Source: a virus. Taken from it: a DNA stretch of 22,414 nt. Below the pieces are notes generated by a model. It was not told the DNA's origin and did not search any database. It saw only the letters and a list, made by a program, of their open reading frames with translations. The stretch covers positions 1 to 22,414 of the IMG/VR virus record IMGVR_UViG_3300028277_000535; one strand, written 5' to 3'. Made by a program: the position numbers and the translations under genes. Positions 5,513-21,996 of the stretch are shown here, in pieces. Each line of letters starts with the position of its first letter. Position 1 is the first letter of the stretch.

Positions 5513-5900
5513 CTACAAAAAATCTCGTATAATAAACACCACCAGTACTACCATGATCCAATCCACTATAACTGCCAGTTATATTTGAATCTGGATTATT
5601 GATTACTTCCGAGTTTTCGATTTGAACCCTGTGAAAATCAGTAAACCATGATGCAGAAATATTTACATCTTCACAAACTCTGGTTAATAAAGAACCTGTT
5701 ATATGTATTTGATTGTACTCTGGTATTGAACTCCAATTCCAACTTGCACTTTCAACTAAACCCCAAACTATAATTTTATCATCATATTCATCTATTTCAC
5801 TCTGATTGTCTGTAATCCAATCATAATCTTCTGGATCTAATGAACCAGATATCACATCAACATTGGTTTGTACTGCAAATCTAATACTATAATAACTCAT
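5472..5900 (-). CDS. Hypothetical acidic protein following the 892-aa Hint protein
   Basis: A 142-aa protein I do not recognise. It is acidic in the first half (a run of Asp/Glu around residues 20-42) and rich in Ser, Asn, Trp and Tyr afterwards. It has alternating hydrophobic residues that suggest a beta-sandwich, for example IHITGSLLTRV and RVQIENSEVI. It ends in NNCTSTL. Its ATG overlaps the stop of the 892-aa protein in a TAATG junction, so it is co-translated with it. Possible roles include a chaperone or a binding partner for the LamG-like C-terminal domain encoded just upstream, or another small virion beta-protein. These are guesses from position only. Confidence 0.55.
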   Translation of the reverse strand: MSYYSIRFAVQTNVDVISGSLDPEDYDWITDNQSEIDEYDDKIIVWGLVESASWNWSSIPEYNQIHITGSLLTRVCEDVNISASWFTDFHRVQIENSEVINNPDSNITGSYSGLDHGSTGGVYYTRFFVDGVNIENNCTSTL

Positions 5901-8578
5901 TAAATTGTCCAGAAGAAATCGGGGTTTTGGGCTCCTGGAGTCATTCTGTTATAATACTTTAAAATACCTTCTGCCAATTCATTCTGATTTCCGGAGGGTT
6001 GTGCTTTACCTATAAATAAAGCTTCTGAAAAGACGCCTCCGAGGGTGTTTACGGTAGTGGTGCCAGTGGTAGATTTACCAAAAACACTCCAATAATTACT
6101 ACCTGCTCTTGGTTGGGTTATTGGGGAGGGCTCATATTGAGTCTGTCCAAACGCAGTGCCTCCTGGATTTGAAAAATTCCTGAAATTCCACCGTGTTGGG
6201 GTAGATGGAGCATTATATCTAACTCCTGTAATAATAAAAGCCGGCATAGGAATGTGCTTGGGGCCGGTTTCTTGATAAGTTGGTGATGGAGAGAAATCAA
6301 CTTGTGGTGGTGAAACAGCAGCCCAAGGTGGTTTGGAATAATACATTTTCCCTTGTGTAGGTTGAGAAAAATTATCCCTCACTGCAATATCCCAATCACT
6401 TCCAGGCTGACAGCTCCACAAACGGCCGTAGTTATTCGATTGACGAGCCGTATAGGCCCATGTCATTATAGTAGTAAATGAACTTGGACCAAAAAACCCA
6501 TAAGTACCAGTATGATATGGATTCGTGGGTTGTTTTGAAAAAACAAAACCTTTTGAACCAGGCATATTGATGCCTTTCATGGGATTTGTATTCCTGGAAA
6601 CGGGACTTCCACCTCCATCGGCATATTCTGCACTGTGCACTGCATACGATCCAGGTTGGACTATTGCATCTATATCTCCACGAGAGGTTAAATCATAAAT
6701 AGTATTAGAAGGACTTGGAAAACTTGAAGGATGACTCACATCCCAATGCCCATATATATCTAATTCACTACCAAATGATGGTGGAATAGGCCAATTTGAT
6801 GGACCATTATGAACGTGTAATCTATTCATAAAGTAATTCGGGTTGGGAGTATCCATTGGTTTCATTTCATAAATATCCCAATGTGATCTCTTACCCACTA
6901 CTTCTCTCATACTCACAACTACTGATGATACCATTTCACCATAAAGTACATCGGTTACTTTCATATCAGGTCTTTTGGGTGTAATACACTGCATACCAGG
7001 CATCAATTGCATGGCTTCCTGATGTTTAATTTCCATTGTTAAATCTGGTCTATATGAAGCCCAACCGAAAAATTTCTCTTTTGGTGCTCTTACTTTCATT
7101 CCTTCACGAGATGCTGCATATATAACTTTAAGTGGTTTTTCAAATAAAAATTCTGCTGTCCAAATATGTCCACCTGTATTAAAAGTAATCTCAACAACTC
7201 TACTTGGCATTTTTTCATCTTCAACTTTACCCATTACACCGGCTACAATTTTTTGTTCTTCATCACTCCAACTCATAGCTACCTGGCCGACCTTTGGTGA
7301 AAAAATCAAATCATCCAATCCTGAAATATTGTTACTTGATTGTGCTTTTACAAAAAATCCATTAACACTCATAACATTTTCTGTAGTTCGAATCATTTTT
7401 CCTTTAACAACACCTTTTACAAATTCAATTTGTTTAATTTCAAATTCTTCCATATTATCACGAAGAATTTTATCACCAACTTCCAAAAACCTTACAGGAA
7501 TATATTGAGAAAGGTGGCCTGCTTTTACAACATTAGTAGAATATGTGAATTTATATTCGTTGTTTATTAAAACATAATTTTTATTGATGTAAGAATCGAA
7601 TTCATCTATTTTAGTTATTTTACCACCTAATTTTAGATTATCTCTCCGTTCTAACAAATATGAATGTTTTTTAGAACCATCTGCTAATTCTACTTCATCT
7701 TTAAGCATACAGTTTGTAGGATCAATTTTATAAAATAACTTTTCATCACCCTTATCTTCGTGTTCCCAATACTTACAATATAAGTTGGGTGTTAAATCAT
7801 AAAATTGTTTTTTAAATATTATTCCATAGGATTTTACTTCTGTCTTTAATCCTGTATCTATATCTATACCGGCATCAATGAAATCTTCACAATAATCAAA
7901 ATCTTTTAAATGTGTAATAAAAGCTTTTTTAGTTTTAAATTTACGAATCTCAACACCTTGCTTTCTATCAACATTACTTTTCTTAAAAACATACCATTTA
8001 TTTTTTTCGAAACCATCGTTATTTTCAATAGTCTGATATTCTGGAGTCGGATAAACATTTAAATGTTGAATTAATTTTTTAGTTTTTAATTTATTCTCCG
8101 CAATTCGATCTATTTCACATTCTCTATTCCAACCCACTCTTAATATGAAATCTTCTTGACTATTATACTCAAACCCATCCCAAATATCATCTTGGTTAGA
8201 ACTATAATGTATATCAAATTTAATGTCTTTTTTACTTAATTCTTTACTTAATTTATCACGAAACGGATGTGAAGGAGTAATTGACTTCCATTTAGATTCA
8301 CATAAAAGAACAAGAGTTTTGTACTTCCAATGAGAACATAAATTTACAAGTGCACCAAAATCAAACCATTCAATCAAATCTTCATCTAATGCTGTATTTG
8401 TATTAATTTCTGTTACGTAACCAACATAATCTTTTGGTAATAAATCAACTGTATATAATACTGCTTCATTTTTCTTCAAACCTCTAACTTCATTGGCAAA
8501 GTAATTACCTAAAGCATTGGCACTCGAACCCAACATCATTTTATAGCTTAACTTATCAAATAAATTTGTATTTTCCAT
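5900..8578 (-). CDS. ATP-grasp-like / double Hint (intein-like) / LamG-like fusion protein
   Basis: An 892-aa multidomain protein. Residues 1-285 share an ATP-grasp-like pattern with two other proteins here: TEINTN at 56-61, FILRVGW at 144-150, WYVFKK at 195-200 followed by a QGVEI loop, and YCEDFI at 229-234. A Hint region runs from Cys290 (CMLKDEVELADGS) to His590-Asn591 (LHVHN). It contains an internal domain boundary near 410-417, where VNGFFVKA replaces a VHN end and NISGLDDLIFSP restarts the pattern, so it is probably two tandem Hint modules. Residues 592-892 resemble a LamG/concanavalin-like jellyroll: HPSSFPSPSNTIYDLTS at 616-632 and a final FSEALFIGKAQ strand. The residue after Asn591 is Gly, so C-terminal cleavage is likelier than splicing. 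The ribosome site is GGAG, 11 nt before ATG. Confidence 0.75.
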   Translation of the reverse strand: MENTNLFDKLSYKMMLGSSANALGNYFANEVRGLKKNEAVLYTVDLLPKDYVGYVTEINTNTALDEDLIEWFDFGALVNLCSHWKYKTLVLLCESKWKSITPSHPFRDKLSKELSKKDIKFDIHYSSNQDDIWDGFEYNSQEDFILRVGWNRECEIDRIAENKLKTKKLIQHLNVYPTPEYQTIENNDGFEKNKWYVFKKSNVDRKQGVEIRKFKTKKAFITHLKDFDYCEDFIDAGIDIDTGLKTEVKSYGIIFKKQFYDLTPNLYCKYWEHEDKGDEKLFYKIDPTNCMLKDEVELADGSKKHSYLLERRDNLKLGGKITKIDEFDSYINKNYVLINNEYKFTYSTNVVKAGHLSQYIPVRFLEVGDKILRDNMEEFEIKQIEFVKGVVKGKMIRTTENVMSVNGFFVKAQSSNNISGLDDLIFSPKVGQVAMSWSDEEQKIVAGVMGKVEDEKMPSRVVEITFNTGGHIWTAEFLFEKPLKVIYAASREGMKVRAPKEKFFGWASYRPDLTMEIKHQEAMQLMPGMQCITPKRPDMKVTDVLYGEMVSSVVVSMREVVGKRSHWDIYEMKPMDTPNPNYFMNRLHVHNGPSNWPIPPSFGSELDIYGHWDVSHPSSFPSPSNTIYDLTSRGDIDAIVQPGSYAVHSAEYADGGGSPVSRNTNPMKGINMPGSKGFVFSKQPTNPYHTGTYGFFGPSSFTTIMTWAYTARQSNNYGRLWSCQPGSDWDIAVRDNFSQPTQGKMYYSKPPWAAVSPPQVDFSPSPTYQETGPKHIPMPAFIITGVRYNAPSTPTRWNFRNFSNPGGTAFGQTQYEPSPITQPRAGSNYWSVFGKSTTGTTTVNTLGGVFSEALFIGKAQPSGNQNELAEGILKYYNRMTPGAQNPDFFWTI

Positions 8579-8584
8579 ATCTAT
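8565..8584. repeat. 20-nt direct repeat, copy 1 (covers the start codon of the 892-aa gene)
   Basis: The 20-base sequence TTTGTATTTTCCATATCTAT occurs here and again exactly at 8621-8640. On the minus strand it encodes the start of the 892-aa protein (the ATG at 8578 and residues Met-Glu-Asn-Thr). The two copies are 56 bases apart and flank the short intergenic region. Confidence 0.9.
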
Positions 8585-8620
8585 TTTATCTCCATATCCG
8601 AATTACTGTACAACAATAAC

Positions 8621-8640
8621 TTTGTATTTTCCATATCTAT
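8621..8640. repeat. 20-nt direct repeat, copy 2 (upstream decoy start)
   Basis: Second exact copy of the 8565-8584 repeat. On the minus strand it opens a 17-codon reading frame beginning at 8634 (MENTKLLLYSNSDMEIK, then TAG) that mimics the first residues of the 892-aa protein and stops just before its real ATG. It may be a leader peptide or the remains of a small duplication. No other gene occupies 8579-8657. Confidence 0.85.
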
Positions 8641-8657
8641 AAATAGGTTATTTATTA

Positions 8658-9275
8658 TTATTTGTATGGTTTTCCGTGTAACCACAATACAACAGAATTT
8701 CGAATTCCCTTTGTAACAGGTTCTACACTATGCATCATAAAAGATGGAAAAAATATTATTGTACCGGCCTTTAATTTAGGTGTATCTTTATCTGGTCCAG
8801 GTTGTCCCTGGAAAACCAATTCTCCACCTTCATAACCATCATTAACAAGTAATACTCCTGAGATTTTTCTATATGACATAGGTCCATCACCACCAACATC
8901 CATATGAGAGTCATATTTACCTTTTACTTTACCATCATAGGTAAGATATATTGCTGGCTCAAACATACCTGTCATTTCAAAATTCCAATTAAAATTAAAA
9001 TTTGCTTGCATACATAAAGATTCAAATTTAGAATATAACCATGCAAAATCTTCTATTTGTGGTATAGCTCTTTGTTTGGCAATTCTTTCAGAATATTCGT
9101 CTGATGAGCCAAACATACTATCTCCGTGTGTTAACGCTTCTTCTTCGGGGAAAGTTTCTACTTGTTTTCTTAATCTTCTCAACTCTACATCCCCAAATGC
9201 TCCTTCAAAAATACAAGGTGCATACATTGGAACTGGTATCGATTTTATAGTTTGTAAATGTAAATTAGTATTCAT
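8658..9275 (-). CDS. 2OG-Fe(II) oxygenase, PKHD-type hydroxylase-like
   Basis: A 205-aa dioxygenase of the PKHD/prolyl-4-hydroxylase superfamily. The iron ligands are His124 and Asp126 (YDSHMDVGG) and His182 (FMMHSVEPV). Arg192 (GIRNSVVLWLHG) sits where the 2-oxoglutarate carboxylate is bound. GGELVFQG (150-157) and AGTIIFFPSF (170-179) are typical strands. Such enzymes are common in aquatic T4-like phages, usually with unknown substrates. The ATG at 9275 has a strong AAGGAGT ribosome site. It precedes the 892-aa Hint/LamG gene, so that protein or its glycan could be the target; this is inference. Confidence 0.85.
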   Translation of the reverse strand: MNTNLHLQTIKSIPVPMYAPCIFEGAFGDVELRRLRKQVETFPEEEALTHGDSMFGSSDEYSERIAKQRAIPQIEDFAWLYSKFESLCMQANFNFNWNFEMTGMFEPAIYLTYDGKVKGKYDSHMDVGGDGPMSYRKISGVLLVNDGYEGGELVFQGQPGPDKDTPKLKAGTIIFFPSFMMHSVEPVTKGIRNSVVLWLHGKPYK

Positions 9276-9291
9276 TTTTGTTACTCCTTAA

Positions 9292-9789
9292 TTAATTTTT
9301 AAACTTTGATACTTCAACTGTCGGCTTATTTTTCCCAGTATCAATTTTTTTCATTTTTTTACTTTTTTTAAAACTTATTTTTAATTTAATCGTTTTTAAC
9401 TCTTGAGTTCCATCATAAAAAATATCAACATTGTTCGGATATATTATAACCGAATCATGTACGACATCACCATTCATAACAATTTGACTATTTGAAAGAT
9501 CCGAAAACTCTGTTTCATAATTAAAAGCAATATTACCATCAGACCCACCCTTGATTAGAGACATTTGACAATTACTATCTTCTTCACCAACTCTATAATA
9601 AATATATTGATGTGCATGTTCACTAAAATACTGAGTTAAATGTTCTTCTAATAACTCTTCAAAATCTATTTCATCTTCTTTGGACCTTTCATCCGTCATT
9701 ATTAAATCTATAAAAAGCCCATTATTGCCAGAAAAATACACTACTGGTCCTAAATCCGTAATATATTGAAACATTATTGAATTATTCAT
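9292..9789 (-). CDS. Hypothetical protein with acidic middle and basic tail
   Basis: A 165-aa protein I do not recognise. The first 30 residues form hydrophobic strands (FQYITDLGPVVYFSG). Residues 32-52 are strongly acidic (EDEIDFEELLEEH), the middle is a mix of polar strands, and the last 30 residues are basic (ISFKKSKKMKKIDTGKN). It has no signal peptide or transmembrane helix. The ATG at 9789 carries a strong AAGGAGAAG ribosome site within a leader nearly identical to that of the beta-barrel gene at 12457, so the two may be expressed alike. It could be a small structural or nucleic-acid-binding protein. No function can be assigned. Confidence 0.55.
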   Translation of the reverse strand: MNNSIMFQYITDLGPVVYFSGNNGLFIDLIMTDERSKEDEIDFEELLEEHLTQYFSEHAHQYIYYRVGEEDSNCQMSLIKGGSDGNIAFNYETEFSDLSNSQIVMNGDVVHDSVIIYPNNVDIFYDGTQELKTIKLKISFKKSKKMKKIDTGKNKPTVEVSKFKN

Positions 9790-9940
9790 TATAACTTCTC
9801 CTTATATATATATCATGTAATATTATATTTTCTACATCACTACACAAAACTATAACTCTCATTTTTTCTTTAGAATCTACGTCTTTGTAATATTTTTCCC
9901 AATCACTCTTCTTCATAAATTCTTCAAATAAAGTTTTCAT
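9782..9940 (-). CDS. Small ORF, 52 aa, unknown function
   Basis: A 52-codon frame fills what would otherwise be the 134-base gap 9790-9923. It starts at the ATG at 9940, five bases after a good AAAGGAA ribosome site, and begins MKTLFEEFMKKSDWEKYYKD. It ends at the TAA at 9782-9784. The protein is highly charged, with a probable N-terminal amphipathic helix, then a short hydrophobic strand (RVIVLCSD) and a basic end (IYIRRSYNE). It overlaps the lipoate-ligase-like gene by 17 nt and the next gene by 8 nt, the tight spacing typical of this window. I see no family match. The ribosome site and packing make it a probable real gene. Confidence 0.55.
   Translation of the reverse strand: MKTLFEEFMKKSDWEKYYKDVDSKEKMRVIVLCSDVENIILHDIYIRRSYNE
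9787..9816 (-). promoter_or_regulatory. Duplicated translation leader, copy 1
   Basis: The 30 bases upstream of and including the ATG at 9789 match the leader of the gene at 12457. From the ATG backwards, 19 bases are identical (CATTATAACTTCTCCTTAT on the plus strand), followed by the same alternating AT run ending TATCAT. It includes the ribosome site AAGGAGAAG. An AT-alternating block next to a strong ribosome site may also be a promoter, but I cannot show that. Confidence 0.5.
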
Positions 9941-10712
9941 TATTTCCTTTTAACAACCATTCTCCATCTTCTAATCTTTTCTTTCCTCTACTAATAAGTA
10001 GTTGCATTTCTCCGTCAGATAGATTATTTTTTTCTAATGTTCCACCGAGTTTCTTCATCAAAATCTTCAAAAATTCATCATTAAATTTTATCGGATCAAT
10101 AGTTGAATCAACTTCCCACAAACCACCAACCACATCACTAACATTTCCGCTATCAGATTCAAATGATGGTGTTTTAAGTACATTATTAATATCCAATTCT
10201 TTAACTTTAGTTGCTAATTTAGAATCAAACTGATAAGTTATACTTCCAACAGTTACATGACAATCATTTATAACCTCATAACTACAACCGAAGAATTTTT
10301 TTTGTTTATTCCCTATTTTAAAAAATATATCATTACGACCATTCCAAAAAGTTTCAATTCCAAATTTAAAACAACATTCTCGTACCGCTTGTAAGAATAA
10401 TGGTTTTACATCACGAGAAAAATATAAAATAAAATTAAAACAATTAGGACCTTCTATCCAATATGCCAATTTATCATCATCTATGTTATCTGGATCTTCG
10501 TAAACTCTTACTATCGGATATTCTATTTCTCCATTAAAAAATGATGAAATATCTAATTTGCTATTTCCAAAAAAAGCTACAATATGTTTTTTTGATGAAA
10601 ATTTTATAACTATAGGACAATTTATATCAATTAAATTTCCATACTCCCAAACTGAACTATATATGTCGGGAGTAAGACTTCCTAAATTTAAATATTTAAT
10701 CTCATTGGTCAT
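9924..10712 (-). CDS. Lipoate-protein ligase A-like (BPL/LplA fold) protein
   Basis: A 262-aa protein whose middle resembles lipoate-protein ligase A. The parallels are a RVYEDPDN segment at 69-76 where LplA has its RRxxGG loop, then NFILYFSRDV strands and NGRNDIFF at 124-131. These are followed by KQKKFFGCSYE at 136-146 (the catalytic-type lysine in KxxG) and a TVGSITYQFD strand at 154-163, with DSKLATKVKE as the following helix. The RRxxGG loop and the HGT-like motif are altered, so it is a divergent or inactive relative, and other ligases of the fold are possible. The C-terminal 75 residues contain a basic helix ending in GEWLLKGN. It overlaps the EamA exporter gene by 11 nt. Why a phage would carry it is unknown. 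Confidence 0.5.
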   Translation of the reverse strand: MTNEIKYLNLGSLTPDIYSSVWEYGNLIDINCPIVIKFSSKKHIVAFFGNSKLDISSFFNGEIEYPIVRVYEDPDNIDDDKLAYWIEGPNCFNFILYFSRDVKPLFLQAVRECCFKFGIETFWNGRNDIFFKIGNKQKKFFGCSYEVINDCHVTVGSITYQFDSKLATKVKELDINNVLKTPSFESDSGNVSDVVGGLWEVDSTIDPIKFNDEFLKILMKKLGGTLEKNNLSDGEMQLLISRGKKRLEDGEWLLKGNNENFI

Positions 10713-11613
10713 ACGCGGTCTGTTTTTCTTTATAAATCAAGAAGATACCGCCTGAAAGTAATCCCAAACCTAATAGTTGATATACTGATGGTGCCGTGTC
10801 TAAAAAGAAATAGGCGATTATTACTGCAAAGAATGAACCAAAACAAAGTTCACCAACTCCTGCGTTACTGGCTCCAATGTATTTAATTGCTGTCCAATAA
10901 CATAAGTATGCAATATAACTGGCCACTATAGCAATATAGAGAATTGCCAATAGATTATGAGTGGTTAGTTGTGAAATTGTAGTTGCTGGTGATTGTAATA
11001 ATGAAGTATAAACAAACACTTGTAGAAAATCGTAGAACACGATAGTAAGTGGTTTATATTTCTTCATTATAGATTGTCCTACTAACAAATATCCAACCCA
11101 TGCTGCAACTGCCACTACACATAACAATACACCAGATGTAGTCAATGCTTCAGTTGAAAATGTGGGCAGAAATTCAATTGCAAACAATGAACCAACCGTA
11201 CCCAACCCTACTGCTATTTTTCTCTTAGTACTGAACTTCTCTCCGTATAAATACACCGCGACGAGTGCCAATACAAATGGATAAAAGTAAAAAATACCAT
11301 AGATGACTGGAATATTAGGATCCAGATATTCCCAACCGAACCAATATGTAATCAAATGGACGGCAAGAAATGCACCATTGGTCAAAAATCGTTTTATATC
11401 TTGTTTTTCCACAAGAAACAGATTTTCACCAGTTCTATATTTTTGAAATAAGATGGTTACACCAAACAAAATAGTTGCTATCAAGAACCTTGTAGATAAC
11501 AAAGTAACTGGACCGGCACCTTCTGCAAAGATATAACTACCTGTAACTTCAAGACTTGACCATGCAAGAATTGAACCGAATAATATCATTATTCCTTTTG
11601 TAAAATTATTCAT
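10702..11613 (-). CDS. EamA/DMT-family transporter
   Basis: A 303-aa integral membrane protein with about ten hydrophobic helices, the standard size for drug/metabolite transporters. Two EamA repeats are visible: one from about residue 5 to 140 (GIMILFGSILAWSSLEVTGS at the start, YPFVLALVAVYLYGEKFS before the first repeat ends), and a second from about 155 to 295 (LLCVVAVAAWVGYLLVGQSI to LLGLGLLSGGIFLIYK). Family members export amino acids, nucleobases or sugars across the inner membrane. Its base composition is slightly less AT-rich than neighbouring hypotheticals, hinting at acquisition from a host. It overlaps the beta-barrel gene by 8 nt and the lipoate-ligase-like gene by 11 nt, so the three are likely co-translated. 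Confidence 0.85.
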   Translation of the reverse strand: MNNFTKGIMILFGSILAWSSLEVTGSYIFAEGAGPVTLLSTRFLIATILFGVTILFQKYRTGENLFLVEKQDIKRFLTNGAFLAVHLITYWFGWEYLDPNIPVIYGIFYFYPFVLALVAVYLYGEKFSTKRKIAVGLGTVGSLFAIEFLPTFSTEALTTSGVLLCVVAVAAWVGYLLVGQSIMKKYKPLTIVFYDFLQVFVYTSLLQSPATTISQLTTHNLLAILYIAIVASYIAYLCYWTAIKYIGASNAGVGELCFGSFFAVIIAYFFLDTAPSVYQLLGLGLLSGGIFLIYKEKQTAYDQ

Positions 11614-12457
11614 TTTTACTATCCCCTAACTTTAAAATACCGAGGTCGGCATTTATTTTAAATAACAAATCACCTTCATTACCAAACTCTACAGATAAGA
11701 AACTACCAGGATAATCTCCATCAAAAGTCCACATAACCCCATAAAGTGGTTTTGCTTCTTTATCAGGAAAACTCTCATATCCAGCGAGTAGATTGAACCC
11801 ATAAAGTCCAGGTTTAATGACTGCTCGGGCGAAATAATACTCATCACTCAAACTATACTCGGCGATATATTCTATCTTATCATTTAATCCACTAACATCA
11901 ATGGATTGTCTTTCTTGATTATCAACTGAAAGTGCTACGAATTGATTTGCTATTTCATATGATACACGAGCGGAAGCGTAATCACTCCATCTATTGTTTA
12001 GATTATCACCGAAATAAGTTTCAAGATAACCTTTTTCACCAAGTGCACCATATACACTAACACCTCGACCAAGAACTAATTCACCGACATCCCAACTGGT
12101 CTGATAAGTAAACATATCTCTACGAGTTAAATCGAGATAAGGTAAATTAGAACCAAACGGAACTAATTGTTGTCCAAATCCAATATTGAACTTACCACCA
12201 TTGGCGACACTATATGGTTTATAAAAGAGTTCTTCAATATAGATTTTCTCATCGTTCCAAGTGGGTCCCCAAAAAAAGGTTGCAAACCATTTTGAGTCAT
12301 CACTTTTTACATAAGAAAATAATATTGGTTTACTCCAAGAAACCGTATCTCCAACTTCGGCATATCCAATAACCGAATTTTTGACTGTGATTGATGATTG
12401 GGCTGATAACATTGAAACCATTCCAAGTATCATCAATAACCTTACTATTTTATGCAT
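11606..12457 (-). CDS. Outer-membrane beta-barrel (porin-like) protein with signal peptide
   Basis: A 283-aa protein that begins with a clear signal peptide: basic MHKIVR, hydrophobic LLMILGMVSML, and a likely cut after Ala19 in MLSA|QSS. The rest alternates polar and hydrophobic residues in strands of 8-12 with aromatic girdles, for example WFATFFWGPTW, FNIGFGQQLVPFG and VSVYGALGEKGYLETYFGD. These resemble phosphate-selective or other outer-membrane porins of Gram-negative bacteria, where a GFGQQxxPFG-like turn is common. About 10-14 strands seem possible. The C-terminus (LGILKLGDSKNE) lacks the usual terminal aromatic of barrel proteins, perhaps because the frame now overlaps the exporter gene. 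A secreted porin-like protein is rare on a phage genome. The specific substrate is unknown. Confidence 0.65.
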   Translation of the reverse strand: MHKIVRLLMILGMVSMLSAQSSITVKNSVIGYAEVGDTVSWSKPILFSYVKSDDSKWFATFFWGPTWNDEKIYIEELFYKPYSVANGGKFNIGFGQQLVPFGSNLPYLDLTRRDMFTYQTSWDVGELVLGRGVSVYGALGEKGYLETYFGDNLNNRWSDYASARVSYEIANQFVALSVDNQERQSIDVSGLNDKIEYIAEYSLSDEYYFARAVIKPGLYGFNLLAGYESFPDKEAKPLYGVMWTFDGDYPGSFLSVEFGNEGDLLFKINADLGILKLGDSKNE

Positions 12458-12490
12458 TATAACTTCTCCTTATTATTATATATATATCAT
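12455..12490 (-). promoter_or_regulatory. Duplicated translation leader, copy 2
   Basis: The leader of the beta-barrel gene. It repeats the 9787-9816 element: identical for 19 bases from the start codon, then a 6-base insertion (TATTAT), then the same alternating AT run and TATCAT. The ribosome site AAGGAGAAG is optimally spaced. It also covers the last codons of the upstream glutaredoxin-sulfotransferase gene. Confidence 0.5.
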
Positions 12491-13635
12491 ATTTCATATC
12501 CAAATTCCAACATTTCTTTGTGAAACTTTTTTTCAATTCTCTTTCGTTGTTTTTTAGTGAGAATGTCTTTCCAATTTTGGTGTTTAAAATATTTTTTACT
12601 CATTGGATAACTGGCCTCTTTATTCATTTTTGCCATCTTACTAAATGATGTACTTTCAATACACTTTTTAATTTTATCTTCATCATATGTACCACATCCC
12701 ACATCATCAGTTAAAAATTTAATAATTTTAGAAAAATATTTAAAACTATCTTGTAATAAATCTTCATATCTAACAACTATTCCAGGATAACCATCCTTTT
12801 CTCCTTGTTCTTTCCAAGACATATAATTTTTATACCAATTTAATCTAAATTCTGGAAAATCATCTTCCTCGGTTATATTCATACCATCAGTTGCTATATG
12901 GTCTATAGCATTATCAATACTAACTTCCATATATCTAGCATAAGAAATAACCACATCTCTTGGATCCCTAATTATATTAATATAACCAGCAGTTTTTGCA
13001 GCATCTATAAATAAATTACCATTAAGAGTGCCATTCTTATTATGAGTTGCAATAAACTCAAAATTTAAATCAGGATCACCATGAGTCCACTCCATTTGTT
13101 GTTGGGCTCGTTGCCAATATTCTACAATTCTTTCTTTTTTTTCAGCAATCTTTGATCTATATTTTCCAAAAAAAAGTCCAGTCAAAAAATGTGGCATTTT
13201 TTGTAATAACTCATAGGAAAACTCTCCACCTTCTGTAAAATAATAAGCTCCTAAAAAACTTCTCGTCCAGTCAGTCCCACTTCGAGGATGAGTTGCAATC
13301 CATAGAATTTTATTATTATTTATCAGTTTTTTTTTTAAATCGGGCTTGATATCGACTACTGTTTCTTGTTTCCACAATCCATGTTTTTTCAATGATTCAA
13401 TAATTAAAAATGAATTTTTATTATCAAATCCAATAAAAAAATCATCTCCTATTTCTACTATTGGAACTGCAAATGAATGAGTTTTTTTAAATATCCTCCG
13501 TCTTTCTTCTCTATTCGTAACCACATCAATTTCTTCGTATTCCAAAGATTGATTAGAAAATAATTGTTTAGCCATGTTGCAGGCTGGACAATTTTTTATT
13601 TTTGATGATGTAAATAACTTTATTTTTGTAACCAT
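12487..13635 (-). CDS. Glutaredoxin-sulfotransferase fusion protein
   Basis: A 382-aa two-domain protein. Residues 1-87 form a glutaredoxin-like domain with a CPAC active site (Cys16, Cys19) and the cis-proline loop in FAVPIVEIGD (55-64). Residues 108-382 form a canonical PAPS-dependent sulfotransferase. ATHPRSGTDWTRSFL (114-128) is the phosphosulfate loop, and IIRDPRDVVISYARY (221-235) is the 3'-phosphate motif. VVRYEDLL (287-294) follows, and the C-terminal FKHQNWKDILTKKQRKRIEK is the expected conserved end. All key residues look intact. The fusion could give redox gating, or use reductant released with sulfonate metabolism; both are speculation. The ATG at 13635 has an AAGGAAA ribosome site 20 bases after the Hint gene, suggesting co-expression with it. 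Confidence 0.85.
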   Translation of the reverse strand: MVTKIKLFTSSKIKNCPACNMAKQLFSNQSLEYEEIDVVTNREERRRIFKKTHSFAVPIVEIGDDFFIGFDNKNSFLIIESLKKHGLWKQETVVDIKPDLKKKLINNNKILWIATHPRSGTDWTRSFLGAYYFTEGGEFSYELLQKMPHFLTGLFFGKYRSKIAEKKERIVEYWQRAQQQMEWTHGDPDLNFEFIATHNKNGTLNGNLFIDAAKTAGYINIIRDPRDVVISYARYMEVSIDNAIDHIATDGMNITEEDDFPEFRLNWYKNYMSWKEQGEKDGYPGIVVRYEDLLQDSFKYFSKIIKFLTDDVGCGTYDEDKIKKCIESTSFSKMAKMNKEASYPMSKKYFKHQNWKDILTKKQRKRIEKKFHKEMLEFGYEI

Positions 13636-13655
13636 TTTTTTCCTTATAAATTAAT

Positions 13656-15266
13656 TTACCCACATAAACCCTTTGCTTGCCACCATGAAGTGCTGGTGCA
13701 CCCGTTTACTGTCCCCTTAGAGGTGGTATATGTCGGCGTATGGCCCCCATTCCCGCCGTGAAGTGAATAATAATCACAGCGCGGACTTGTATTGGGATAT
13801 GAGACTTCAGCATAAGTGGGATAACTTACCCATGTGATCCAGAGGCTACCGTTACACGCCGCATTATGTAGTATCACTCCATTCGCATAATAATAATCCT
13901 GGGGTTCAACATTAATTTCACTAATAGGAAACACCTGTGTTGAAGATGAAACAACCGAAATACTTGTTATTTCTAATTCTTGACCATCTTCGTCTGCCAA
14001 ATAATCTCCAATAGATAATTCTATTGATGGTTTAAATTTCCAAGTATTTTCGCTTCCACTTGTAAAAAGATTTGTAAATGTACCAAATTTCTTATCACCA
14101 TTTATTACGGTATATGAATCTGTGAATAAATCGGGCCATACATCAATAACCTCAACATTTGATTGGGATGGTATTGATAAACTTGAAGTTTCCCAAAGTT
14201 TCCAGAAATAATGACCACACTTGTTAGCGTACCCATCCGATTCATCGGGTAACCCACTAATATTACGAATTTTTAAGAACGACCCCGTAACTACATTTTC
14301 TATATTTGTATAACTGTTATCTGACATCAATACCTGACTTCCCGATATGGCACCCTTTCGTGTAATAGTAGTTGTCGTATAAGAACCCGAATCACCTGAT
14401 AAAATATAATGAGGTAAATGAGTTTGAAAAACATTCACATCCGCTGTAATTGGATTCCGTGGTTGTAAAAAAATATTTTCTTGTGGAGTCAACATCATAA
14501 TACCCCTCACCTCAGAATAATAAGCCCCATTATAATTCAAATCGGGTAGGATAAACTCCTCACAATAAGATTGAGAAAGTAAATAATTTTTATTATCATC
14601 CGTTATATCATAAAACTGAAAAGAATTCATAAGTAAAGTTTGATAATCTACTGTGGGGTCTTTAATAAGTACATCTGGAACACCAACACCATTAGAAAAT
14701 CCATCAGGTAAATCTGCCATTTTTCTTGGCATCAAAGATTCAATTCCAGATGAAGATGCGAAATTCCTAAATTCTCTTTTATCCGATGCTAAATAATCAA
14801 TAGGACTTGCAGAATCAAATCCAAATCGTAACACAAAAGTAGTATTAGGAACATCAAAATCTGGTACCGGAGTAGGATAGGAGGGCTGAACATAAATACT
14901 TGATGTAAACCCATCTATGTCCAAACTGGCTGTTATATCACCTACCAGCTCCAAAGGTGGCATAACAGTTCCTTCTTCATTTCGTGTAACCAAAACTATA
15001 GTGTCATAATTATTTGCTTTCCACCAAGTAACTGCACTATCTAAAAAATTAGTTTCAGGTGGAGTTTGAATATTCGTGTTAAGTTCTAATAACTTTAATG
15101 ATCCACTTGAAGGGACCCAATCATATCCGGCAATTACTCCATGATTATTACCCTTTCCTGTCCAATATTCAGGATTACTTCCTGTCAAAAAGGGGGCAGC
15201 AGCTTGCAAAGACTGAGTTGCAATAGAACTACTATAATTATTAAAATTAAAATAATTTAATTTCAT
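13656..15266 (-). CDS. ATP-grasp-like / Hint (intein-like) protein with Cys-containing tail
   Basis: A 536-aa protein. Residues 1-300 share the ATP-grasp-like pattern of the 892- and 284-aa proteins: LLELNTN at 59-65, NNYDTIVLV at 85-93, FVLRFGF at 144-150, GVPDVLIKD at 195-203 and YCEEFI at 234-239. A Hint domain follows (about 305-468). It starts AISGSQVLMSDNS with Ala306 where Cys is normal and ends in YYANGVILHN with the catalytic pair His467-Asn468. The next residue is Ala469. The usual block-B His is replaced by Asn399. This predicts C-terminal cleavage by Asn cyclisation but no splicing, freeing a 68-residue peptide with four Cys (471, 497, 523, 535) that is rich in Tyr, Trp, Ser and Gly. 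The start has a strong GGAGG site and an ATGA overlap with the GNAT gene. Confidence 0.75.
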   Translation of the reverse strand: MKLNYFNFNNYSSSIATQSLQAAAPFLTGSNPEYWTGKGNNHGVIAGYDWVPSSGSLKLLELNTNIQTPPETNFLDSAVTWWKANNYDTIVLVTRNEEGTVMPPLELVGDITASLDIDGFTSSIYVQPSYPTPVPDFDVPNTTFVLRFGFDSASPIDYLASDKREFRNFASSSGIESLMPRKMADLPDGFSNGVGVPDVLIKDPTVDYQTLLMNSFQFYDITDDNKNYLLSQSYCEEFILPDLNYNGAYYSEVRGIMMLTPQENIFLQPRNPITADVNVFQTHLPHYILSGDSGSYTTTTITRKGAISGSQVLMSDNSYTNIENVVTGSFLKIRNISGLPDESDGYANKCGHYFWKLWETSSLSIPSQSNVEVIDVWPDLFTDSYTVINGDKKFGTFTNLFTSGSENTWKFKPSIELSIGDYLADEDGQELEITSISVVSSSTQVFPISEINVEPQDYYYANGVILHNAACNGSLWITWVSYPTYAEVSYPNTSPRCDYYSLHGGNGGHTPTYTTSKGTVNGCTSTSWWQAKGLCG

Positions 15267-15691
15267 TTACTTTCCTCCCAATTACATTTTTTAAATACAT
15301 TTATGCTTTTTATATTCCACACATCTATCTTACTATAAATATCAATTCTCTCTTTATTTACCAAATTTGTAATTGAATATATTAATTGCCCTCCATATCC
15401 CGTATTTCTATAATCTTTATGCACATATAAATTACAAAGTTCATTTTCTAATATATTAAACCAAACCCATCCCACAATTTTATTATCTATTTCTAAAATA
15501 TTAAAATACCATCCATCTTTTAATCGTTGTTTTGCATCTTCCATCGACCACATATCTTTCCAATTCAATTCTACTTCGAATTCATCTATAGCCCATTTTA
15601 ATTTTTCTTCATCTAAGTCAAAAACTTGATTTATTTCTGGTATAATTTCAACTTCTTTATAATTTATTAAATCTGGTTTAAATTTAATCAT
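15263..15691 (-). CDS. GNAT-family N-acetyltransferase (copy A)
   Basis: A 142-aa GNAT protein. LYVHKDYRNTGYGGQLI (88-104) carries the acetyl-CoA loop, and the FKKCNW end fits motif B. It is the paralogue of 3449-3877, aligned without gaps over residues 31-100 with about 57% identity by hand count. The ATG at 15691 directly follows a TAA (15692-15694) that closes the remnant of the SET-domain frame. It has no good ribosome site, so it looks built for reinitiation after translation of the intact upstream gene. Its own stop overlaps the 536-aa Hint gene as ATGA. The pairing of a GNAT with a Hint gene suggests the Hint product could be an acceptor; unproven. Confidence 0.8.
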   Translation of the reverse strand: MIKFKPDLINYKEVEIIPEINQVFDLDEEKLKWAIDEFEVELNWKDMWSMEDAKQRLKDGWYFNILEIDNKIVGWVWFNILENELCNLYVHKDYRNTGYGGQLIYSITNLVNKERIDIYSKIDVWNIKSINVFKKCNWEESK

Positions 15692-15763
15692 TTATTCATC
15701 AATATCCAATCCATTAGGATACCACTGTAAAAGTTCTTCGTCCTTTTTTATATCTTTAGTGGA
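15692..15763 (-). pseudogene. Detached C-terminal remnant of the SET-domain gene
   Basis: The 72 bases between the SET-domain stop and the GNAT start continue the SET frame without a shift. After TAA (15764-15766) they encode STKDIKKDEELLQWYPNGLD and four more residues (IDIDE minus one overlap), then TAA. The DI..(G/D)EEL...Y pattern is the canonical closing motif of SET domains, so the stop at 15764-15766 is a nonsense codon inside what was one gene of about 133 codons. Alternatives are a sequencing or assembly error, or stop readthrough. Confidence 0.75.
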
Positions 15764-16093
15764 TTACAAAACAAAAATTTTATAATTAATATGTTTTTTA
15801 AATTTCCAATAAACACTTCTATCCTCTAATTTAATTGCACTATTATACAATGCTGCATATCCAAATACCACACAATGTTGCTCTTTCGGTTGACCATTTG
15901 GTAATTCTCCATCCTCACAGAAAAACATATATTTTTGAAATTCATCATCCTCAAAATATCCTTCCACTACACGATAATGACATTCTTCCAATAATTCTCC
16001 CTTTTTTATATCCTCTTTTGCAAAAACACCATATCCTTGTAGGGGAGATTTTCTAACTTCTAATTTCGGATTATGATAAAGTTTATCTTTCAT
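15764..16093 (-). CDS. SET-domain protein, truncated by an in-frame stop
   Basis: A 109-aa frame with the N-terminal part of a SET (lysine-methyltransferase-type) domain. SPLQGYGVFAKEDIKKGELL (residues 16-35) is the GxGvfA...I..GE hallmark. FGYAALYN (77-84) is the start of the cofactor-binding segment. The His and Ser of the NHS motif are missing or shifted (YNSAIKLEDRSVYW), so activity is doubtful even apart from the stop. The frame ends at KIFVL before the DIxxxEEL motif, which is encoded directly downstream. Short SET proteins occur in phages and bacteria and methylate lysines on proteins. As it stands the product is incomplete and probably non-functional. The ribosome site is weak. Confidence 0.7.
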   Translation of the reverse strand: MKDKLYHNPKLEVRKSPLQGYGVFAKEDIKKGELLEECHYRVVEGYFEDDEFQKYMFFCEDGELPNGQPKEQHCVVFGYAALYNSAIKLEDRSVYWKFKKHINYKIFVL

Positions 16094-16112
16094 TTATCAA
16101 ACTTCTTTGTCA

Positions 16113-16412
16113 TTATCCCATCAAATCTGGTCGTGAAAGTGCATCTTCTTTTGGTTTATTTACTTCTTCCAAACCAAGTCCAGCTCCATCTATAAACATC
16201 TTCGGAACTTTCCCACAATTACCACAACTATAAACTTGAACTGGTACAAGTGCTTCTTGTCCTGTTGGTGACATAATTGGTGAAATCCTTTTAATTACGT
16301 GTGCTGTAATGAAAAGGTAATTCCCACAATCATCACATTTTATAGTCTCTGCCTTTTTCAAATCCACTTGAACTTCTGTTTGTGGTTGTTGAGGTGCTTT
16401 TCTTTTAGCCAT
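16113..16412 (-). CDS. Zinc-ribbon phage protein
   Basis: A 99-aa protein with a treble-clef/zinc-ribbon cysteine pattern: Cys26-x2-Cys29 (IKCDDCGN) and Cys63-x2-Cys66 (YSCGNCGKVP), 33 residues apart. Between them is an SPTGQEALVPVQV segment that I recall from small conserved proteins of aquatic T4-like phages. The first 20 residues are basic and Gln/Pro-rich. The last third is acidic and flexible. Function is unknown; zinc ribbons of this size often bind nucleic acid or stabilise virion proteins. The ATG at 16412 has an AAAGGAG site and overlaps the kinase gene by 8 nt. It is one of few island genes that look like phage core rather than cargo. Confidence 0.75.
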   Translation of the reverse strand: MAKRKAPQQPQTEVQVDLKKAETIKCDDCGNYLFITAHVIKRISPIMSPTGQEALVPVQVYSCGNCGKVPKMFIDGAGLGLEEVNKPKEDALSRPDLMG

Positions 16413-17199
16413 TTTCTAACTCCTTTAATGTAACTGTTGCAACACCGTGTTTTTGTACTACTCGTGTTGTACATTTTTGTGCAAATTCTATTGCACTTTC
16501 TATATTATTTGTATCTAAATAACCACGAACTAATCCAGCGATGAATGTATCTCCTGCTCCACTCACATCTTTAACAGGAACTTCTTCTACTGAAAAATCT
16601 CTTTCATTATATCTACATCCTTTACTACCTAATGTAACAATAAGTTTTTCCTTGAATCCATCATCTGACAGTAATTCATGATTCTTCTTATATTCTAATT
16701 CGTTTATCTTGATAAAATCTGCATCTCTTATCCACTCACCAAGTTTCTTTTTAGTGTCTACAAATACATTTTTATTATATTTACAAATATGTTCTATATC
16801 ACTTTCTTCTAAAAACCCTTTACAATAATCTGAAATAATAATTGCATCAATCTTATTTATAGTACCCGTCAAACTATAAGATGTAAATTTATTATTCAGT
16901 ATACCTTGTAATTTTTTTATTTTTATTCTATCACAATAATCGTGTTCATCAACCCTTAATACCATTTGACCTGAACGATTTTCTACATATCTTTTCTTTG
17001 TAATGCTATTTACATTAGTTATGGTATAAATAGTCATACCTAATGACTCAACATTATTTGCAACATTTTTTGCCATACCATCATTTGATTCTGTATGTGA
17101 TGGAACAAGTACTGGTACTGGTGCCTCAGGACTAATTCTTTCTATATCACCATAGACAAATACATCTTGACAACTATCTCCTATAACTAATACATTCAT
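16405..17199 (-). CDS. PfkB-family sugar kinase, HldE/RfaE N-terminal-domain-like, shortened
   Basis: A 264-aa ribokinase-fold kinase. GDSCQDVFVYGDIERISPEA (7-26) is the signature of the heptose-7-phosphate kinase domain of HldE/RfaE. VSGAGDTFIAGLVRGY (212-227) holds the catalytic Asp217 and anion hole. IDAIIISDYCKG at 117-128 and FVDTKKKL at 146-153 follow the family. It is about 50 residues shorter than usual: the stretch between TITN (59-62) and ITKKRYV (66-72) is almost absent, which removes much of the lid that closes over the sugar, and the GGAxNVA loop reads NDGMAKNVA. Sugar specificity may therefore differ. With two GT25 genes next door it probably supplies or modifies a sugar for glycan decoration. 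Confidence 0.75.
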   Translation of the reverse strand: MNVLVIGDSCQDVFVYGDIERISPEAPVPVLVPSHTESNDGMAKNVANNVESLGMTIYTITNVNSITKKRYVENRSGQMVLRVDEHDYCDRIKIKKLQGILNNKFTSYSLTGTINKIDAIIISDYCKGFLEESDIEHICKYNKNVFVDTKKKLGEWIRDADFIKINELEYKKNHELLSDDGFKEKLIVTLGSKGCRYNERDFSVEEVPVKDVSGAGDTFIAGLVRGYLDTNNIESAIEFAQKCTTRVVQKHGVATVTLKELENG

Positions 17200-17888
17200 T
17201 TTATTTTTTCCTTATCATAATAAAAATTCTTATTGGCTGGTGGAATTGTATTAGAATCACCATTGTCTATTTGATATGCCAATCGTTGATTTGTAATATA
17301 AGCATTTAATAATCCCTTTCTGACTACTCGATGTGTCATATCAGAATCAACTGCTATTTTAGGGTATTTTAGATGTTCTAAAAATACTTTACAGGCCTTT
17401 TTATTAACCATAAAACATTGATTTCCAGGTTTGTATTCATATATAGAATAAAAATCATTTATTTTTTCTTTAATGACCAAATCTTCTGTGAGATAACCAA
17501 AATGAATCATATCCCAATCCTTTGGAATGTGTTTTATACATTCATTAAATTTTTCTTCAAAGTCATCTATAAAAACACAATCATCTTCAATTATAAGTAT
17601 ATTACCATAATCTTTATTTATATTTTTTTTATATATTTCAAGAAAGGTTTTATGTAAACCAACTAACCCAGGTGTCAATGATTTACCCAATTTAAATCCT
17701 GATCTTTTAGTCTCATAAAGTTCACCTAATAACTTTTCCTTTTTATAATTTATTTTTTTACCATCTATTGCAGGAAATCTTTCTGTTTTAGATAATAACG
17801 GAATTTTACTTAATTGATGTTCTATTTTTTTTCGTCTATCTTGACGATAATCTAAATTTATATAATAAGATTTATGAAATATATTCAT
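17196..17888 (-). CDS. Glycosyltransferase family 25 protein (copy B)
   Basis: A GT25-type glycosyltransferase (LPS biosynthesis family). Counting from the TTG at 17906, the hallmarks are YYINLDYRQDRR (14-25), FPAIDG (44-49), LTPGLVGLHKTFLEIY (77-92) and ILIIEDDCVF (103-112) with the acidic EDD metal motif. I prefer the ATG at 17888 (codon 7 of the longer frame) because the earlier codon is TTG inside the upstream gene and GAGG lies 12 bases ahead of the ATG. The product would be 230 aa. The family transfers galactose, glucose or heptose to lipo-oligosaccharide, or hydroxylysine sugars in collagen-like proteins. It sits beside a heptose-kinase-like gene and the ATP-grasp-like protein. Confidence 0.8.
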   Translation of the reverse strand: MNIFHKSYYINLDYRQDRRKKIEHQLSKIPLLSKTERFPAIDGKKINYKKEKLLGELYETKRSGFKLGKSLTPGLVGLHKTFLEIYKKNINKDYGNILIIEDDCVFIDDFEEKFNECIKHIPKDWDMIHFGYLTEDLVIKEKINDFYSIYEYKPGNQCFMVNKKACKVFLEHLKYPKIAVDSDMTHRVVRKGLLNAYITNQRLAYQIDNGDSNTIPPANKNFYYDKEKIK

Positions 17889-18726
17889 ACTCTTTTGAAT
17901 CCTCAAAATAACTTTTATACCTTGATTGTAACGATAAATCTAATCTATTTTCTATTTCAGTTTTAGTACTTAAATATTTATATTCTGGTGTAATAGTTGG
18001 TTGTAAATTCTCATAATCAGTTATATCAATAGATATATTTTTTCCACATAAATGATAAGTATTCAAATAATAATCTGATACTATATAATCTTCACAATAC
18101 TCGTCCACAAAAGCATCTTGATAATCTTCCTTGTCAAAAAGATAAATACCCTTTCCCGAATCAAGTTCGGTATCTTTCATAACAAAATCTGGTACACCAT
18201 TACCCTTTTCAGTTACATCCTCTAATCTTAATATTTGTTTTGGAAAATTAAGTTTATCTCCCAAATATTGTCTTACCCATCTTTTATTTGTAGATAAATG
18301 TTCAATAAATGCAAACTCACGATTAAATGTTTGTTGAAAATTGAAAATTGATGGATCATCAGAAAAATCCATATAAACAAAATCTCCGACATCTTCGTTC
18401 ACCGTTTCTATTTTTATCTCCTTTTCCATTAAATTATATAAACTTCTATCACACCCTACGTTCCAAAACACAAGTTTACTATAATTGTTATTTACTAAAA
18501 AATCTTGTAAAATGCTCAAATCAAGTTGAGTTTTAGAAGTTACGGTTGCGGCCGTATCTATTTCTAAAAAATACAATTTGCCATCCTTTGGTATTAAAGA
18601 AGTCTTAACTAAAATAAAATGATTAGACAACTCCATATATTCTTTCATATCTGATGAAATCGATTCGTGAAAAATATCAGATTGTTTTTTAATTATCGGA
18701 ATATAAATATTTAAATCAAAGTTCAT
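17872..18726 (-). CDS. Stand-alone ATP-grasp-like protein, relative of the two Hint proteins
   Basis: A protein of 284 aa from the ATG at 18726. An in-frame GTG at 18744 would add 6 residues, but only the ATG has a usable GGAG site. Residue numbers here are from the GTG. It matches the N-terminal part of the 536- and 892-aa Hint proteins: LIPKDGKLYFLEIDTA (50-65), NNNYSKLVFW (85-94), HLSTNKRWVRQYL (149-161), GVPDFVMKDTELDSGKGIYL (183-202) and YCEDYI (216-221). The Lys190 plus a glycine loop, followed by an acidic YCED hinge, fits an ATP-grasp nucleotide site, though I claim this from pattern only. It overlaps the two flanking GT25 genes, suggesting a joint role. Possible activity: ligation of an amino acid or peptide to a glycan or protein. 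Confidence 0.7.
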   Translation of the reverse strand: MNFDLNIYIPIIKKQSDIFHESISSDMKEYMELSNHFILVKTSLIPKDGKLYFLEIDTAATVTSKTQLDLSILQDFLVNNNYSKLVFWNVGCDRSLYNLMEKEIKIETVNEDVGDFVYMDFSDDPSIFNFQQTFNREFAFIEHLSTNKRWVRQYLGDKLNFPKQILRLEDVTEKGNGVPDFVMKDTELDSGKGIYLFDKEDYQDAFVDEYCEDYIVSDYYLNTYHLCGKNISIDITDYENLQPTITPEYKYLSTKTEIENRLDLSLQSRYKSYFEDSKEYEYIS

Positions 18727-21388: not shown

Positions 21389-21996
21389 TAAATTACCTCA
21401 TCAATTAATCCATACTCTAAACATTGTTTAGCATCCCACAGTAAATCGTGTTTTAATATTTCATCAAGTTTCTTCATTGGAACTTTAGTATATTTCTTAT
21501 ACACATCTTTAATGGTTTTCATCATTAAATCAAGATTCTGTTTCTCATCCTCAAAGTTAGCGTATGTTCCCCAAAAGTTACTACTTAACTGATGAATCAA
21601 CATATAAGAATTTCTACTCATAAATCTATAATTACCAACTACTGACAAAAATGTAGCCGCACTTGCTGCAAATCCATCTACATAAGTATGAATTGGAACT
21701 TTACATCTCAACATAGTATCCATAGATGAAATACCGGCAGTGATTGAACCACCACCTGAATTTATCAATATTTTAAGTACAGGTGGATCTATATCTAAAG
21801 TATTTGCTAATGTCAAACTTTTAGATTCTATCTCACCTATCTTTTTATTTAATTCTACTGCACTTTCTCTGTTTACATTAGAATAATAATAAATCTTATT
21901 TTCGTGAACTGATATGTGCTTTTCTGGTTTACCACCATTTGGTTGTGCATCTTTTGTAACAGGTGGTTTCTTTTCACCCCAATATTTTTCGTTCAT
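21388..21996 (-). CDS. clpP: ClpP-like ATP-dependent protease subunit (copy A)
   Basis: A 202-aa ClpP-fold protease. NSGGGSITAGISSMDTM (79-95) is the glycine-rich substrate loop. The triad is Ser112 (DGFAASAATFLS), His135 (MLIHQLSSNFWGTY) and Asp184 (ILKHDLLWDAKQ), and the ending LEYGLIDEVI is standard. The first 30 residues are an extra polar, Lys/Pro-rich segment. Compared with the other ClpP of this window, length and triad spacing are the same, but outside the motifs they share little, so they are old paralogues or separate acquisitions. They could form a mixed two-ring protease, or one could serve as prohead protease. It shares an ATGA with the upstream small gene. Confidence 0.9.
   Translation of the reverse strand: MNEKYWGEKKPPVTKDAQPNGGKPEKHISVHENKIYYYSNVNRESAVELNKKIGEIESKSLTLANTLDIDPPVLKILINSGGGSITAGISSMDTMLRCKVPIHTYVDGFAASAATFLSVVGNYRFMSRNSYMLIHQLSSNFWGTYANFEDEKQNLDLMMKTIKDVYKKYTKVPMKKLDEILKHDLLWDAKQCLEYGLIDEVI

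Follow-up and report, generated by a model that had tools for sequence, protein, structure and literature searches.

What are the three related proteins that a marine phage encodes on a 22,414-nucleotide stretch of DNA (IMG/VR record IMGVR_UViG_3300028277_000535, positions 1 to 22,414; hereafter the window), and what does the Hint domain carried by two of them do? An earlier, sequence-only reading had described them as ATP-grasp-like proteins, two of them fused to intein-like Hint domains. All three open reading frames (ORFs) are present where it placed them, on the minus strand: P0001 (892 amino acids, 5900-8578), P0002 (536 amino acids, 13656-15266) and P0003 (284 amino acids, 17872-18726), for which the ATG at 18726 is favoured and a longer GTG form reaching 18744 is less likely. 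We computed homology, a permuted fold, a Hint fold, conserved residues, recurrence in other phages and passenger exchange. From these, we give about an even chance to the reading that P0001 and P0002 consist of a circularly permuted, amide-ligase-type ATP-grasp domain on a self-cleaving Hint carrier of the bacterial intein-like (BIL) kind, with an exchangeable C-terminal passenger. P0003 is a stand-alone permuted ATP-grasp-like protein.

The N-terminus common to the three proteins was recovered by pairwise BLASTP and by a family profile that unites them. P0003 matched P0002 at E=1e-9 across 267 amino acids and P0001 matched P0002 at E=2e-4, while the direct match of P0003 to P0001 was weak (E=0.07). 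Profiles derived from relatives, in which the window proteins are themselves rows, recovered all three at very low E-values. The motif series follows the claimed order, near residues 45-63, 147, 163, 200 and 231-236. Judged by these comparisons, the shared N-terminal domain is not due to chance; scans of the window proteins with Pfam and PHROG models left it unnamed.

Is this domain an ATP-grasp fold? The ATP-grasp assignment held and could be refined: the domain, which occupies 14412-15266 (-) in P0002 (residues 1-285) and 7712-8578 (-) in P0001, is very probably of the circularly permuted kind found in glutathione synthetase (GSS), glutathionylspermidine synthetase (GspS) and YgiC. The permuted order was proposed from sequence, before the structural result. 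The EINT motif noted earlier around residue 60 corresponds to the Mg-binding E-x-N with which ordinary ATP-grasp domains end, and because it sits N-terminally here instead of closing the domain, the order is circularly permuted. Matches to D-Ala-D-Ala ligase (Ddl) lead to the same order. Residues 158-240 of P0001 matched the NCBIfam Ddl_archaea model (E=8.4e-4) and residues 144-240 of P0003 the PRK14571 D-Ala-D-Ala ligase model (E=0.0036), both below curated cut-off and both corresponding to Ddl positions 92-185. Family columns 44-77 aligned instead to the C-terminal end of a Ddl profile built from six sequences (E=0.0044 and score 28.9, against E=0.76 and score 11.9 for the reversed control). 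Thus, the pieces of Ddl are matched in swapped order, as in a permuted domain. When a tandem-duplicated family profile was compared with Ddl, no single continuous permuted alignment emerged and the short E-x-N piece alone aligned.

The structural evidence comes from an AlphaFold2 (AF2) model of P0002 built with 24 sequences, whose predicted local distance difference test (pLDDT) values were mostly 75-94 by block over residues 11-200 and dropped to 51-79 over residues 201-270. Foldseek searches of the PDB with this model returned plant and yeast GSS (1.5e-5 and 2.1e-5), GspS (3.4e-4) and YgiC (9.2e-4), and we recognised no unpermuted ATP-grasp among the 50 matches listed.

Several results count against this assignment. 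The P0002 model is modest overall (mean pLDDT 64.6, predicted TM-score 0.54) and global superposition was poor (TM 0.22-0.30, root-mean-square deviation 8-14 Å in Foldseek), the TM-scores being low because the match covers part of each chain only. Of the structural support sought for the sequence-only reading, the ATP-grasp match was obtained with P0002; an AF2 model with P0003 as query (8 sequences) reached pLDDT 33, and PDB sequence searches with P0003 and an 8-row alignment yielded no match of use. The ATP-grasp models of Pfam, PHROG and NCBIfam all fell short of their curated cut-offs: GSP_synth (PF03738) gave no match at E<=10 and CP_ATPgrasp (PF04174) none in the window even at E=10, and PF14403 was absent from the Pfam scan results. 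An hhalign comparison with GSP_synth (two sequences, ygiC/gss) gave a signal no better than its reversed control; the link to GSS and GspS therefore rests on fold and residue spacing.

Is an active site retained? We take the functional residues of the E. coli enzyme Gss to be R316, D318, E330, N332, K498 and K533, and the fetched sequence has R, D, E, N, K and K at those six positions. The catalytic columns of the family hold D49, E61, N63, R147, K163, K202 and E236 in P0002 and D45, E57, N59, R147, K163, K199 and E231 in P0001, with a D-x11-E-x-N spacing in P0002 identical to that of GspS D318/E330/N332. The D, E, N, K and K are kept in all full-length Hint-fused members, giving each the Mg ligands and two phosphate-binding lysines; the E236 column is Glu, but Gln in the related contigs L060 and L061. 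A discordant residue is GspS Arg316, which has no counterpart two positions before the Asp (G47 in P0002, T43 in P0001). The ligase domains are under purifying selection by the ratio of nonsynonymous to synonymous divergence (dN/dS). P0001 and P0002 are likely to be catalytically competent as predicted ligases. In P0003 the metal ligands are altered, a point not raised in the sequence-only reading (the D, E, N and R147 columns read S, E, D and Q), with both Lys and the Glu kept and the gene under purifying selection (dN/dS 0.27). In the short forms of the domain found in other contigs, D, E, N and R are retained, but the first Lys is missing, as is the segment that would bear the second; these forms are likewise under purifying selection (dN/dS 0.10). 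P0003 and the short forms are probably non-catalytic.

The Hint domains reported for two of the three proteins were found again, in P0002 by fold and PHROG and in P0001 by profile-profile comparison, and the assignment is nearly certain. The Hint/BIL domain of P0002 (13863-14366 (-), residues ~301-468) matched the BIL domain 2lwy by fold (Foldseek, E=7.6e-7) and PHROG 38766 (0.0012), and in L006, a relative of P0002, intein_Cterm matched above cut-off. The P0002 domain lacks Cys1 (GAISGSQV) and the block-B His (TFTN) and ends LHN|A. Hint domain 1 of P0001 (7343-7711 (-)) matched the family Hint at E=1e-6; it starts NCMLKDEVELADGS, has Cys1 (Cys290) and lacks a terminal His-Asn, and on inspection of the sequence we did not recognise its block-B His. 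A second, tentative Hint-like stretch of P0001 (6806-7342 (-)) ends VHN|G and gave a weak profile match (E=0.0074, probability 5%).

Could these domains cut the chain? Type A BILs carry His-Asn at their end and no +1 nucleophile (PMC4031507). The N-terminal nucleophile is missing from most Hint domains of the family, and a terminal His-Asn without a +1 nucleophile is kept in P0001, P0002, L048 and L060. L048 (5992-7749) has two successive Hints, the second of which is a full BIL by sequence (2lwy, 1.6e-18), with an intact Cys1, TxxH and VHNK end. Since Cys1 and the block-B His are missing, the remaining reaction would be C-terminal cleavage by Asn cyclisation, and we favour, on balance, the prediction that cleavage occurs at His-Asn. 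Two points speak against it: the terminal His-Asn is missing in the L036 group, L059 and L061, so cleavage cannot be general, and in ordinary inteins Cys1-less cleavage is an off-pathway reaction that can be slow.

Alternatively, the Hint parts could be ordinary mobile inteins in unrelated genes that share motifs by chance. Inteins do occur in these phages, apparently in the L037 clamp loader with an adjoining HNH-like ORF. The Hint parts described here, however, lack terminal nucleophiles and lie at domain ends, not within a conserved domain, and no homing endonuclease was recognised in the window proteins. With the N-terminal homology significant, the profile and fold results mainly refute this reading, which is scarcely credible. 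As a separate observation, the clamp-loader gene appears split by an intein (..ETLTHNCDF..) at both L037 12286-13885 and L039 2401-4000, with the HNH-endonuclease-like ORF adjoining.

How widespread is the fusion? We found the family in ~25 marine phage contigs, where it takes seven or more architectures and Hint fusions predominate; homologues thus recur fused to Hint domains, which the sequence-only reading had named as a supporting result. Single-protein scans of IMG/VR returned close copies only. A profile search of fetched contigs gave a distant member in the L002 contig (a 528-residue open frame, L036:5298-6857), and the alignment of P0002-type and L036-type proteins then retrieved 20 loci, including L048-L061. 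The architectures are the P0002 type (ATP-grasp, Hint and a small Cys-containing passenger), the P0001 type (ATP-grasp, Hint-like region and a ~300-residue passenger), the L036/L047/L053/L055/L057 type, the L048-L051 type (two Hints and a VHNK end), L059:9403-10785, the L060/L061 type, the stand-alone P0003 type and the short form of ~195 amino acids (L058, L059:5941, L006:3448, L055:236). Hint fusion was seen in every full-ATP-grasp subfamily except P0003. Related contigs carry T4-type replication genes (DNA polymerase, clamp, clamp loader, DnaB-like helicase, ribonucleotide reductase and UvsX), and the family belongs to marine phages related to T4. With every query tried, tblastn against 50,697 annotated phage records failed to match the ATP-grasp part, the matches there being to Hint or Peptidase_S74 (S74) parts, and P0001, P0002 and P0003 as queries had no match in that collection. 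No cellular relative emerged from two pattern scans of genome contigs, a weak negative since such scans need conserved peptides. One variant, L056 1487-2896, has the short-form domain followed by MORN-like repeats, and similar-looking very long repeat proteins occur in L038 17785-20000.

What lies beyond the Hint? The P0002 passenger (68 amino acids, residues 469-536; 13656-13862 (-)) has a GC content of 0.515 and is the GC-richest 204 bp of the window, whose mean is 0.308. The P0001 passenger (301 amino acids, 5900-6805 (-)) has a GC content of ~0.42, against 0.27 in the ATP-grasp part of the same protein. Four Cys are conserved across the three complete P0002-type passengers. Between P0002 and L005, identity falls from 95% in the ATP-grasp domain and 86% in the Hint to 42% after His-Asn; between P0001 and L009 it is 88%, 94% and, in the passenger, 58%. 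Synonymous divergence (dS) jumps at the same place, from 0.08 in the ligase domain to 1.49 in the passenger for P0002/L005 and from 0.20-0.28 upstream of the passenger to 1.0 within it for P0001/L009. Such a jump argues that the passenger was replaced through recombination close to, or at, the predicted cut site, not altered by fast mutation. These data point to passengers as exchanged GC-rich cassettes, swapped between phages at the Hint boundary. Retroelement diversification of the P0002 passenger, also considered, is unsupported: the differences run throughout, with indels and high synonymous divergence, and no search was aimed at a reverse transcriptase.

A constant carrier, a Hint and a swapped C-terminal cassette of foreign composition recall bacterial polymorphic toxins, in which case the carrier and Hint would release a variable C-terminal effector. 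Yet neither passenger matched a toxin family in the family-model scans, no immunity gene was recognised and no secretion domain is present; this reading is highly improbable.

Traces of rearrangement were also seen. The C-terminal end of a short form, a relic of a fourth family member, lies at 9785-9949 (-) (short-form hidden Markov model, E=2.6e-12) and had gone unnoticed in the sequence-only reading; it ends RVIVLCSDVENIIL, overlaps the end of the 9924-10712 gene and is a trace of past deletion or recombination. In L043 801-1160, the N-terminal 47 residues of a P0002-type protein are joined to the end of the counterpart of the window gene 9924-10712; this is either a true deletion or an assembly chimera in a variable region.

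When would the fusions be made? Upstream of Hint-fused members and of some baseplate-locus genes lies a motif, GATATTTATW. In the window it occurs as GATATTTATA at 15334-15343 (-), 68-77 bp upstream of P0002 and within the GNAT gene, and as TATTTATA at 8638-8645 (-), ~60 bp upstream of P0001. Within ~110 bp upstream, GATATTTAT was found for 13 of the 28 family genes and for 2 of 370 other genes (Fisher 4e-15, with related phages not independent). The motif or its core, TATTTATW, stands before all the Hint-fused types but not before all of their members (L006 is without it), and is not found upstream of P0003 or the short form; the core also precedes three genes of a locus with a baseplate wedge gene. 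Its label as a late promoter is a guess: the T4 late promoter has the reverse-complement sequence, which is unfavourable to that label and makes the role of the motif uncertain, and the sense-oriented T4 late promoter, TATAAATA, was not enriched upstream of family genes (0/28). Gp23 and sheath models had no match in the contigs; the Gp23 model was also silent in control genomes and hence uninformative. Whether the Hint-fused genes are expressed late, as we predict, is an even call.

Might these proteins be part of the virion? The Hint and S74 domains would then be tail-fibre maturation parts of tail or baseplate proteins, the ATP-grasp domain a reused scaffold or virion-carried enzyme, and the passenger a variable tip. 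The C-terminus of L060 is a Peptidase_S74 chaperone domain, matched in Pfam at 6.5e-4 (below cut-off) and in tblastn against annotated S74 structural proteins at 2e-6, PHROG 38766, which the P0002 Hint resembles, is a virion structural family, and P0002 is the highest in Ser/Thr among window proteins. The upstream motif shared with baseplate-type locus genes and the exchanged passengers are compatible with this as well. A dead scaffold, however, would not need the metal and ATP residues kept in all full-length Hint-fused members, the genes lie among metabolic genes outside structural operons, and the composition of P0001 is not unusual. We regard a virion role as quite unlikely.

Family genes occupy a variable region with tailoring-type genes. 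In the window, the neighbours are a GNAT acetyltransferase directly upstream of P0002 (15263-15691 (-); Pfam Acetyltransf_1, 4e-13), a glutaredoxin-sulfotransferase, an EamA transporter, 2-oxoglutarate (2OG) oxygenases, a radical SAM protein and, on either side of P0003, the two glycosyltransferases reported earlier, both GT25. Five contigs share a conserved order: PIG-L deacetylase, ATP-grasp/Hint, radical SAM, a c1-cluster protein, MFS transporter and 2OG oxygenase. Cluster c1, joined by BLAST linkage, mixes GNAT proteins, including that of the window, with tRNA-synthetase-like/GNAT fusions and lies near most family members. This setting suits an ordinary auxiliary enzyme of peptide or cell-surface tailoring, partnered by the nearby GNAT, 2OG oxygenase, radical SAM, sulfotransferase, PIG-L and transporter products, with a vestigial or merely structural Hint; the loss of most Hint nucleophiles fits too. 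A vestigial Hint is harder to reconcile with purifying selection on the Hint part (dN/dS 0.10-0.24), the His-Asn kept in several subfamilies, its position at the passenger-exchange boundary and its fusion to all full ATP-grasp subfamilies but one. An auxiliary enzyme of this kind is possible, if somewhat unlikely.

Other genes in these regions deserve mention. Window 9924-12457 encodes a lipoate-ligase-like protein (weak, 0.0038), the EamA transporter and a signal-peptide barrel-like protein, which occur together in six contigs. L047 2362-3771 (Pfam tRNA-synt_2b, 1.2e-8), L055 913-2292 and L053 3406-4875 carry a class II aminoacyl-tRNA-synthetase-like domain and cluster with GNAT proteins; presumably they resemble amino acid:carrier protein ligases. 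The window also holds two ClpP-like protease genes, at 574-1179 (Pfam 5e-32) and 21391-21996 (BLAST clustering).

How could a ligase on a self-cleaving carrier work? We infer cleavage, catalysis, late timing and substrate in the following scheme. The protein would be made, probably late in infection, and the last Asn of the Hint would cyclise, cutting at His-Asn|Ala in P0002 or His-Asn|Gly in P0001 and releasing the passenger, whose N-terminal amine would be newly formed. The ATP-grasp domain may bind Mg-ATP through its D/E/N and two-Lys set, form an acyl-phosphate on a carboxylate and join it to an amine; candidate substrates are the passenger, a neighbour's product, or a host or virion component. 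Passengers would be exchanged between phages at the Hint boundary, and P0003 and the short forms would be non-catalytic or changed paralogues. The full version, a late phage system in which the ligase conjugates the released passenger (or the carrier) to a virion or host-surface component, is unlikely and put forward tentatively; if true, it would be a modular phage protein-conjugation device.

How does the family compare with known systems? GSP_synth (PF03738)/YgiC and eukaryotic glutathione synthetase are the best ATP-grasp fold matches of P0002 and share with the family the permuted order and the D-x11-E-x-N followed by two Lys. Unlike them, the family is ~270 amino acids long instead of 380-480, has neither a sequence-model match nor an Arg316 equivalent, is fused to Hint and is found only in phages. 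CP_ATPgrasp (PF04174) and PF14403 are permuted ATP-grasp domains of bacterial peptide-type ligases; the family differs in having no PF04174 match at E=10 and no PF14403 in the Pfam scans. Ddl resembles it in the sub-threshold model matches of P0001 and P0003 (8e-4, 0.0036), but is not permuted and is matched as separate pieces in swapped order. Known BILs are found mostly beside secreted bacterial proteins, not ATP-grasp ligases. P0002 shares the fold of type A BILs (2lwy) and the terminal His-Asn before a non-nucleophile (PMC4031507), but lacks Cys1 and the block-B His. Polymorphic toxins with Hint pre-toxin modules, such as Maf, have the same succession of constant carrier, Hint and variable C-terminal passenger; here, the carrier has a ligase fold, the passenger has no toxin match and no immunity gene was seen. 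Phage tail proteins with Hint or Peptidase_S74 endings resemble L060, in which a Hint precedes an S74-like domain, but in the family the N-terminus is an ATP-grasp and the window copies have no tail domain. The sequence-only reading knew of no described family with this architecture, and we likewise found no ATP-grasp fusion to Hint (or bacterial intein-like) domains in annotated phages or in a literature search that excluded subscription papers and preprints. The parts are individually known and their combination is unreported in the sources searched, so that its novelty is provisional. A named family with marker residues is now available for many unannotated marine phage genes. In its Hint-fused members, a single polypeptide combines an enzyme that forms bonds with a domain that cuts them, and the passenger cassette is swapped close to, or at, the site of predicted cleavage. 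Were they active, these members would be natural self-releasing ligases, of use in protein engineering.

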